DNA of 64,000 nucleotides from Geitlerinema sp. PCC 7407 (GTDB lineage: Bacteria > Cyanobacteriota > Cyanobacteriia > PCC-7407), in NCBI RefSeq assembly GCF_000317045.1, contig NC_019703.1:1-64000 (forward strand), given 5' to 3'. Under the pieces are notes generated by a model that was given only the letters and a program-made list of their open reading frames with translations, had not been told where the DNA came from and ran no database searches. Below, piece by piece: positions 59,732-61,626 of this stretch; the stretch's first letter is position 1, and every line of letters starts with the position of its first letter. Both the position numbers and the translations under genes were made by a program.

Positions 59732-61063
59732 ATGAAACGCGTAGTCGACCCTGTGGGATCTTGGTTCCCCATCCCTTTCTTCTCGCGAGGCGCGGCGATC
59801 GCCCTTGCTGCTGGCCTGCTGACCACCGCCTGCCAAAATCCTCCCTCTGAAGGCGGCGCGTCTTCCCCCAATGGCGCTAGCGGCTCCAGCAGCAACGGCC
59901 TCAAAATCGGCTCCCTGCTGCCAGCGACGGGCGATCTGTCCCCCATTGGCCAAGAAATGATTCAGGCGGTGCCCCTGCTGGTGGAAACCGTGAACCAGTG
60001 CGGCGGCGTCAACGGCCAGCCCGTCACCCTGGTGGCCGAAGATGACCAAACCGATCCCCGCGCCGGTACCCAGGCCATGGCCAAGCTGGCGGAAGTCGAT
60101 CGCGTCGGCGGTGTCGTTGGCTCCTTTGCCAGCAGCGTCTCCAGCGCCGCCGTCGACGTGGCTGTGCGCAACAAAGTCCCCATGGTTTCTCCCGGCAGCA
60201 CCAGCCCCGTCTTCACAGAGCGGGCCGCCAAAGGTGACTTCGGCGGCTACTGGGCCCGGACTGCACCCCCCGACGACTACCAGGCAGCTGCCCTCGCTCA
60301 GCTCGCCAAAGATCGCGGCTTCACGCGGGTCTCGACCGTCGTAATCAATAACGACTACGGCGTTGGCTTTGAGAAGCAGTTTGTGGCGGCCTTCAAGAAG
60401 CTGGGCGGCACGGTGATCAACGAAAGCAACCCCACCCGCTACGACCCCAACGCCACCACCTTTGACACAGAAGCCGCAGCGGCCTTCGCCAACAAGCCAG
60501 AAGCCGTGGCAGCGGTCCTCTACGCCGAAACCGGTAGCCTGCTGCTGAAGTCGGCCTACCAGCAGGGCTTGATGGATGGAGTGCAGGTGATGCTCACGGA
60601 CGGCGTCCAGAGCGAAGAATTCCCCAAACAGGTGGGCCAGACCAGCGACGGCAAATTTATTTTGCAAAACGCGATCGGGACGGTGCCGGGGGCCAGCGGC
60701 GCGGCCCTAGCAGACTTTACTAAGCTGTGGCAGGAGAAGAAGGGCAAGGCTCCCGGGGCCTATGTGCCCCATACCTGGGACGCGACGGCGCTGATCGCCC
60801 TGGCAGCCCAAGCAGCCCAATCCAATGACGGGGAGGCGATCGCGGCCAAGCTGCGCGACGTGGCCAACGCGCCCGGCCAGGAAGTGACGGACGTCTGCGA
60901 AGGACTCAAGCTCCTCGCCAGCGGCCAAGACATCAACTACCAGGGCGCCAGCGGCAACGTTGACCTTGACGCCAACGGGGACGTGGTGGGCGCCTACGAC
61001 GTCTGGACCGTCCAGGAAAATGGCGGCATTGGCGTCGTCGGTAAGGTGAACCCTGCCCTGTGA
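59732..61063 (+). CDS. ABC transporter substrate-binding lipoprotein, LivK-like
   Basis: Extracytoplasmic binding protein for branched-chain or other amino acids (periplasmic binding fold type I, 443 residues). The signal peptide ends in lipobox LLTTAC with Cys34, then a Ser/Gly linker. Family motifs are LKIGSLLPATGDLSPIGQEM, GGVNGQPVTLVAEDDQTDP, GVVGSFASSVSSAA and VVINNDYGVGF. GAGGAG at 59714-59719 is 12 bases before ATG 59732 and 6 before an in-frame TTG 59726, so the latter start cannot be excluded. The stop codon is the first base of an IS-like remnant; no permease or ATPase genes follow. Confidence 0.92.
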   Translation: MKRVVDPVGSWFPIPFFSRGAAIALAAGLLTTACQNPPSEGGASSPNGASGSSSNGLKIGSLLPATGDLSPIGQEMIQAVPLLVETVNQCGGVNGQPVTLVAEDDQTDPRAGTQAMAKLAEVDRVGGVVGSFASSVSSAAVDVAVRNKVPMVSPGSTSPVFTERAAKGDFGGYWARTAPPDDYQAAALAQLAKDRGFTRVSTVVINNDYGVGFEKQFVAAFKKLGGTVINESNPTRYDPNATTFDTEAAAAFANKPEAVAAVLYAETGSLLLKSAYQQGLMDGVQVMLTDGVQSEEFPKQVGQTSDGKFILQNAIGTVPGASGAALADFTKLWQEKKGKAPGAYVPHTWDATALIALAAQAAQSNDGEAIAAKLRDVANAPGQEVTDVCEGLKLLASGQDINYQGASGNVDLDANGDVVGAYDVWTVQENGGIGVVGKVNPAL

Positions 61064-61470
61064 CATACTCCTACGCTGATACTGACGTATGCAGCGTAGG
61101 CTTCTCAGTGACCCCTGGTATCCCATCGGGCGTTTCCTGAGCTTTATTGACGATACGGGATGCCCCACCGCACCGGAACAATACAAAGAGTGTTGTTCTC
61201 TCCTTTGTACTGCTGGAATTTTACCTGCCCACAGATGGGACGACGAATCGTATGTTTCTAGGCAGAACCCCATATTCCAGGTTGTCAAGGTTCAAGTTTC
61301 AGGGCGGCGATTAGCTCAAACCCTTAGCCTGATTATCACACCCGTTTTGCATCATGAGAGATTTGCTCGTTTCCTCCATCTCCCCTTCTCGCGCCTGTGG
61401 CATAGGTCAGAGGAGTGTCGTTCGCTCGCTCGCATTCATCTCAACGCCAAATCAAAGATGATGGCGTGAG
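61063..61470 (-). mobile_element. Probable IS200/IS605-derived remnant or miniature element
   Basis: At one end, right at the preceding stop codon, lies a hairpin CCTACGCTG / CAGCGTAGG (61070-61078 and 61092-61100) with inner ATAC/GTAT pairing, flanked by TGACATACT and CTTCTCAG. This arrangement, read on the minus strand as AGAAGCC-stem-GGAGTATGTCA, is what I remember for right ends of cyanobacterial IS200/IS605-type elements with tnpB. The other end has hairpin CTCA(A)CGCCA / TGGCGTGAG at 61440-61470. The interior (about 340 bases) shows no TnpA or TnpB motifs, so it is a decayed copy or a non-autonomous derivative. Confidence 0.55.
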
Positions 61471-61522
61471 GCTTCTGCTGCTTTAGCTAAGAGGACGTCT
61501 GAAAAGGGCCGCAGGCCTTGGT

Positions 61523-61626
61523 ATTGCCCTCATCCCCAAGCCCCTTCTCCCAGGTTTGGGAGAAGGGGAGCTGACATTCTGTTTCCCTCTTCCAAGTTTG
61601 GGAGAGGGGAAAGGGGTGAGGGCAAT
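61523..61626. repeat. Dispersed hairpin repeat element
   Basis: A 104-base element with perfect 10-base outer inverted repeats ATTGCCCTCA / TGAGGGCAAT (61523-61532 and 61617-61626). Inside are two hairpins: CCCCTTCTCCCA with TGGGAGAAGGGG, and TTTCCCTCTTCCAA with TTGGGAGAGGGGAAA. Similar CCCTCAxCCCC...GGGAGAAGGGG elements are common in cyanobacterial intergenic DNA, as I recall. No coding content. Confidence 0.7.

Follow-up and report, generated by a model that had tools for sequence, protein, structure and literature searches.

The 3′ end of livK in Geitlerinema sp. PCC 7407 adjoins a 427-bp non-autonomous IS200/IS605 element, located at 61060-61486 of the window (the whole 64,000-nucleotide stretch of DNA analysed here) with the minus strand as element sense, and over its last ~235 nt this element represents an RNA whose covariation is very strong. 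The best explanation, and one that we consider rather probable, is that the element is a mobile guide-RNA gene which uses TnpA and TnpB in trans, with the antisense of livK as its guide.

Anatomy of the element and its parents in the same genome

With respect to its limits, an alignment of about 40 ends from the same genome shows that the flanks differ between copies both beyond position 61490 and beyond position 61060 (...GGAGTATGTCAC| on the minus strand). The range of 61063-61470 proposed in an earlier sequence-only reading of this DNA has accordingly to be corrected to 61060-61486, adjoined by the target motif and presumed TAM TTAG at 61487-61490 (minus strand; CTAA on the plus strand). 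TTAG adjoins the left end (LE) in nearly all copies, one copy having TTAA. The LE with its subterminal hairpin (61431-61486, minus strand) matches the LE of 1.45-kb elements carrying tnpB at 82-87%, and the right end (RE; 61060-61171, minus strand, ending ...GTATGTCAC) matches the RE of these elements at 87%. The hairpin flanked by TGACATACT and CTTCTCAG, on which the sequence-only reading was based in part, is indeed found at 61070-61100 (minus strand) as the terminal hairpin of the RE, CCTACGCTGATACTGACGTATGCAGCGTAGG; it is backed by the end alignment, by compensatory changes in the covariation analysis (helix 7), and by its folding as DNA, which is better than that of shuffles (z = -3.5). 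The second subterminal hairpin of that reading is likewise present, at ~61440-61470 (CTCAACGCCA...TGGCGTGAG); its energy alone is no better than chance (z = -0.24), and it owes its standing to being conserved in the LE of all copies. Such subterminal palindromes are common to the element and to IS605-type elements, and long terminal inverted repeats are absent. As had also been claimed, no transposase gene lies between the ends of the element; an ORF of 126 aa on its plus strand has no Pfam match and is a chance ORF.

A blastn comparison of 61040-61520 with the whole 4.68-Mb genome yielded 41 matches, and the notion that no other element might have these ends clearly fails. Eighteen of the matches are full-length short copies, 13 at 96% or more (96-98% or better, the window copy included) and five older ones at 74-85%, and the remainder are partial or comprise ends only. 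About 17 of these further matches cover only the 112-bp RE and, where covered, ~60 bp of the LE, and most of them are the ends of the 1.45-kb elements, whose tnpB genes code for 403-453 aa and have their stop codon inside the shared RE. Thirteen tnpB elements of the genome share both ends with the short copies, which bears out the suspected IS200/IS605 origin of the short element as well as the idea that a TnpB guide-RNA scaffold overlaps its hairpin end. Their ORFs are long and uninterrupted, and 11 of the 13 match all three strings of the catalytic motifs (GIDxGL, HEKLN and DRDHN; D/E/D). In addition, the genome codes for five Y1 transposases, three of which adjoin tnpB genes of this same-ended family.

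In comparison with the tnpB copies of the same genome, homology is limited to the 112-bp RE and ~60 bp of the LE, and a homology of the interior to tnpB or tnpA was rejected; on its LE side, the interior is similar to the LE regions that some tnpB elements have in other genomes. As read from the sequence, the RE of the short copies is out of the tnpB frame, and its conservation is therefore not coding. Among the 13 young copies, which are not independent of each other, the RE has the fewest variable sites (4/112 vs. 40/319 elsewhere, p = 0.006). Since DNA transposition also needs the RE, however, this conservation has partly another cause, and the deeper covariation is stronger evidence for an RNA function than the low variation among young copies.

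Insertion at the livK stop codon and at other sites

When the flanks of the element are joined with TTAG, livK reads GCC CT|C TAA, i.e., the empty gene would end in CTC TAA, its original TAA stop codon having been included in the target motif. The RE tip changes this end to CTG TGA and thereby replaces the stop codon TAA by TGA (61061-61063, plus strand), leaving the protein unchanged. The element had been read as starting inside the livK stop codon; it does sit at the stop, but rather than merely starting there it supplies the whole TGA. Since LivK homologues stop at the same residue (GKVNPAQ*, GKVQPE*, GKVTPQ*-like), nothing is truncated in livK. With an in-frame TGA provided by the RE tip, an insertion at a CTAA stop codon does no harm. 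In sister strains, the empty site is expected to read CCCT|CTAAGAGG. The position of the hairpin directly at the stop codon could also be taken to indicate a host structure linked to livK, either a terminator or a 3′ UTR element; however, the same block is found in many unrelated places of the genome and LivK homologues carry other sequence past the stop, by which this explanation is already contradicted and hardly credible at all.

Besides the window copy, at least five others are located at stop codons, and at 6 of 28 reconstructed sites (L001, L003, L005, L008, L029 and L030) a long ORF ends exactly in this frame. Of the TTAG sites in the window, 2 of 117 are of this kind (binomial P ~7e-6, or 8e-5 when compared with non-genic sites only), a P value that is rough since the census covers the window only and is small and ORF-based. 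The excess most likely reflects the survival of harmless insertions and not targeting, and the stop-codon insertions show how the combination of a TTAG target with a GTGA tip spares genes.

As to empty sites in relatives, for which the searches at family and order level cover this genome only, a clean one is available for a related subfamily in genome G177, where ...CCATATTAC|[element]|TAAGAGG compares with an empty ...CCATATCAC|TAAGAGG in the congeneric genome G135: the insertion is clean after TTAC, the TTAC-type motif is kept once, and a target duplication is absent. This evidence comes from a congeneric pair of another subfamily. For the window copy itself, the empty site is a reconstruction, with the TTAG target being read from the flanks and by analogy with TTAC. 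IS608 (ISHp608), which encodes tnpA and tnpB, has a TTAC target and a TCAA tip; the same pair is found in the G177 relatives, whereas the window family combines TTAG with TCAC. A second G177/G135 site has six bases extra, and at a third (L231 on G135 C133 vs. L188 of G177) the orthologous position is occupied by a 160-bp derivative that has both transposon ends and has lost the RNA. The persistence of this derivative without the RNA has to be counted against the guide-RNA explanation. At the G135 locus L230 (C54, 250-1649), the place where G177 has an RNA element is taken by a different insertion of ~1.4 kb without any ORF of at least 150 aa.

The structured RNA and its distribution in cyanobacteria

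In G190, G115, G287 and G199, matches run past the 112-nt RE to ~235 nt or more, and the elements concerned are without tnpB. From an alignment of 18 sequences of such elements a consensus structure of 54 pairs was obtained, 25 of them doubly changed, with pairing in 98.1% of cells; shuffles never reach the values for pairing, double changes or covariation, and a shift of the 3′ strand by 1-3 columns brings pairing down to 35-47%. The measure of 'further pair types' lies below its shuffles and by itself lends no support to the structure. G-U pairs in several helices agree with an RNA of minus-strand sense. Adjoining the RE, the RNA comprises a 5′ domain of ~120 nt, P1-P4 (61172-61294, minus strand, from covariation), which the sequence-only reading had missed. 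A covariance model of this domain only, R1, matches the window at 61161-61291. Among 26 diverse R1 matches aligned with MAFFT, 11 of 12 P1/P2 pairs are doubly changed and 94% are paired as compared to 67% in shuffles, a pairing value biased somewhat upward because the model used to find the matches already contains P1 and P2.

Rfam 15 contains nothing that matches over the RNA at gathering score, nor any credible family match. Low-scoring matches near it (miRNA families, Moco) were rejected; they fall mostly on the nested palindromes ATTGCCCTCATCCCC...CCCCTTCTCCCAGGTTTGGGAGAAGGGG...GGGGTGAGGGCAAT at 61523-61626 just past the element, which give spurious miRNA matches and are probably another repeat family. 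IStrons join IS605 elements with group I introns, and a long and structured RNA as found here might likewise be a self-splicing intron removing the element from transcripts. Yet the Rfam scans are without a group I or group II intron match, and the window copy lies past the end of the livK reading frame, in the orientation opposite to that of the gene, all of which renders an IStron-like function very improbable.

Of 24 related loci, 16 have -10-like boxes 29-69 nt ahead of the 5′ domain, as compared to 4.8 ± 1.8 in shuffles, which suggests a promoter region for the RNA, in the window at 61324-61365 (minus strand). Strict promoter scans were negative, the window copy included, where the -10 box (GATAAT) is weak.

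Using the R1 model at E <= 1e-5, the 5′ domain is found in 20 of 281 cyanobacterial genomes belonging to 18 genera, with twelve scored copies in one genome. A tnpB gene beside the RNA was encountered at none of the 24 loci inspected, and a TnpB-type RE (hairpin, then GTCA-type tip) lies downstream of the RNA in 18 of 21 loci, the other three (L127, L139 and L126) appearing truncated. Conversely, in a set of 37 loci, most of them with tnpB, R1 produced only three weak matches (L084, L121 and L107), and tnpB was found in none of these three. All of the 12 RNA-bearing genomes that were checked have tnpB genes, which in several of these genomes have right ends of the same type, a co-occurrence that is weak evidence because cyanobacteria carry many tnpB genes. 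The suggestion that the window copy might be an 'RNA fossil' undersold what is a multi-copy, recently active RNA-only family, the RNA of which is kept by compensatory change across genera.

Among the papers considered, the nearest described elements are the palindrome-associated transposable elements (PATEs) of Haloquadratum, which resemble the present element in being transposase-free and multi-copy, in having subterminal palindromes related to IS605-type elements, and in not duplicating their target; the passages considered contain no description of a conserved structured RNA, whereas the element here has a covarying RNA of ~235 nt with its own 5′ domain (PMC3119063). With transposase-free PATEs being known (PMC3119063), the window element might be just another PATE, in which the DNA ends alone matter, for TnpA, and the RNA-like region is an inherited passenger with no guide role today. 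The two end hairpins alone explain mobility, and the 160-bp G135 derivative keeps both ends without the RNA. However, 120 nt of the 235-nt RNA should be unneeded for DNA transposition and the RNA is nevertheless kept by compensatory changes across genera, and the -10-like boxes lie upstream of it in related loci, so that an RNA without a role in the guidance of TnpB as passenger of a PATE appears unlikely.

In some of the tnpB-less RNA elements (L125, L145, L143 and L123, from G190 and G115), small ORFs of the CopG/ribbon-helix-helix (RHH) type are found on the opposite strand up to ~250 bp upstream of the RNA; they match RHH_1 at E ~1e-7, the L123 ORF matching DUF6290 only, below the cut-off. 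Self-regulation of the RNA by these ORFs is possible. In the G190 and G115 elements such a gene would also allow for other regulation, and the 5′ domain is without counterpart in the scanned tnpB copies. The RNA might hence act against TnpB or together with another partner, as a decoy, an inhibitor or the RNA of an unknown protein, and the flank would then not be a guide. However, the scaffold matches the tnpB RE to the last base with the flank at guide position, and a recurrent partner gene beside the RNA was found in none of the loci inspected, which makes a decoy or an RNA of another partner distinctly unlikely.

Scaffold, presumed guide and proposed mode of action

In ISDra2, the TnpB RNA has an ordered scaffold of 116 nt which ends at the RE tip and is followed by ~16 nt of flank as guide, and a pseudoknot is formed between positions -5/-3 and -105/-103 (PMC10097598, PMC8612924). 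The 112-nt RE of the window element, as a TnpB omega-RNA (reRNA) scaffold, has the size of that of ISDra2, and the two systems agree in a scaffold of ~112-116 nt running to the RE tip and a flank-derived 3′ guide, presumed here, past the RE (PMC8612924, PMC10097598). Homology between the scaffold and the tnpB RE extends to the last base, which puts the flank where guides lie; this position on the minus strand is, as the sequence-only reading had it, the 3′ end of livK. The presumed guide just past the RE tip, AGGGCAGGGTTCACCT (61044-61059, minus strand), is thus antisense to livK, and a search of the genome with TTAG and the first 12 guide bases finds its own junction and one site with two mismatches, fewer than with a reversed-pattern control, i.e., no other good TTAG target. 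A terminal pseudoknot would be possible at the same distance as in ISDra2, as the hexamer GGGCAT, which is invariant and located at -106 (down to -109 in other copies), could set GGC facing the terminal GUC. The spacing at which GGC could face this GUC as in ISDra2 is found in about half of the copies aligned, the rest being 1-3 bases off, and the bases are invariant and show no covariation. Unlike ISDra2, the element has no tnpB in cis, and in place of the region 5′ of the scaffold, which is dispensable and disordered in ISDra2, it has a covarying domain (PMC8612924, PMC10097598).

Under the preferred explanation of a mobile guide-RNA gene, TnpA (a Y1 transposase) from related elements would move the element in single-stranded form and insert it 3′ of TTAG, a step that is supported by its anatomy. 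The putative internal promoter would give rise to a minus-strand RNA of ~270 nt, which would be composed, in this order, of the 5′ domain P1-P4, the 112-nt scaffold, and the ~16-nt guide from the flank. By analogy with the known biology of TnpB, the protein, supplied by any of the 13 intact tnpB copies related to the element, would bind the scaffold, TnpB and RNA would cut the healed TTAG+livK site left by TnpA excision, and repair of the cut would copy the element back. For the 5′ domain, a probable though speculative role is to stabilise or process the RNA, or to adapt it to being used when there is no linked tnpB mRNA. Should the RNA act in trans, the RNA-guided retention by TnpB would be exploited by non-autonomous elements as well, and these would not be just passengers of TnpA, which could help to explain why, in this genome, the short copies equal their tnpB parents in frequency. 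There would then also be natural TnpB guide RNAs without coding-sequence overlap, and their structure could therefore be read from covariation free of protein constraint.

Standalone omega-RNAs of IscB and protein-less elements of the TnpB family have reportedly been found by Altae-Tran in 2021 and by Meers in 2023. They are like the RNA here in that a guide RNA is encoded away from its nuclease, for use in trans. Known kin are the PATEs and the standalone omega-RNAs, and what is new here is the 5′ domain and its breadth. No description of the RNA or the element was found in the literature searched, a scope that limits the claim of novelty, and to our knowledge neither the 5′ domain nor this cyanobacterial family has been reported. 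The chances seem about even that these elements form a widespread undescribed class of RNA-only IS200/IS605 elements in cyanobacteria, mobile guide-RNA genes which own a promoter and a dedicated 5′ domain and borrow TnpA and TnpB, each copy homing to its own empty site.

Two further loci of the same genome deserve mention. L030 (genome positions 406275-407042) is an internally deleted tnpB element of 768 bp with both ends intact, located at a stop codon, and is an intermediate between the tnpB and the short elements. An RNA-like stretch with a weak score of 24 bits and an intact RE (L036 1764-1852, the same location as L003 3151-3239), ~1.7 kb away from a strong copy, is possibly a diverged member of the family.
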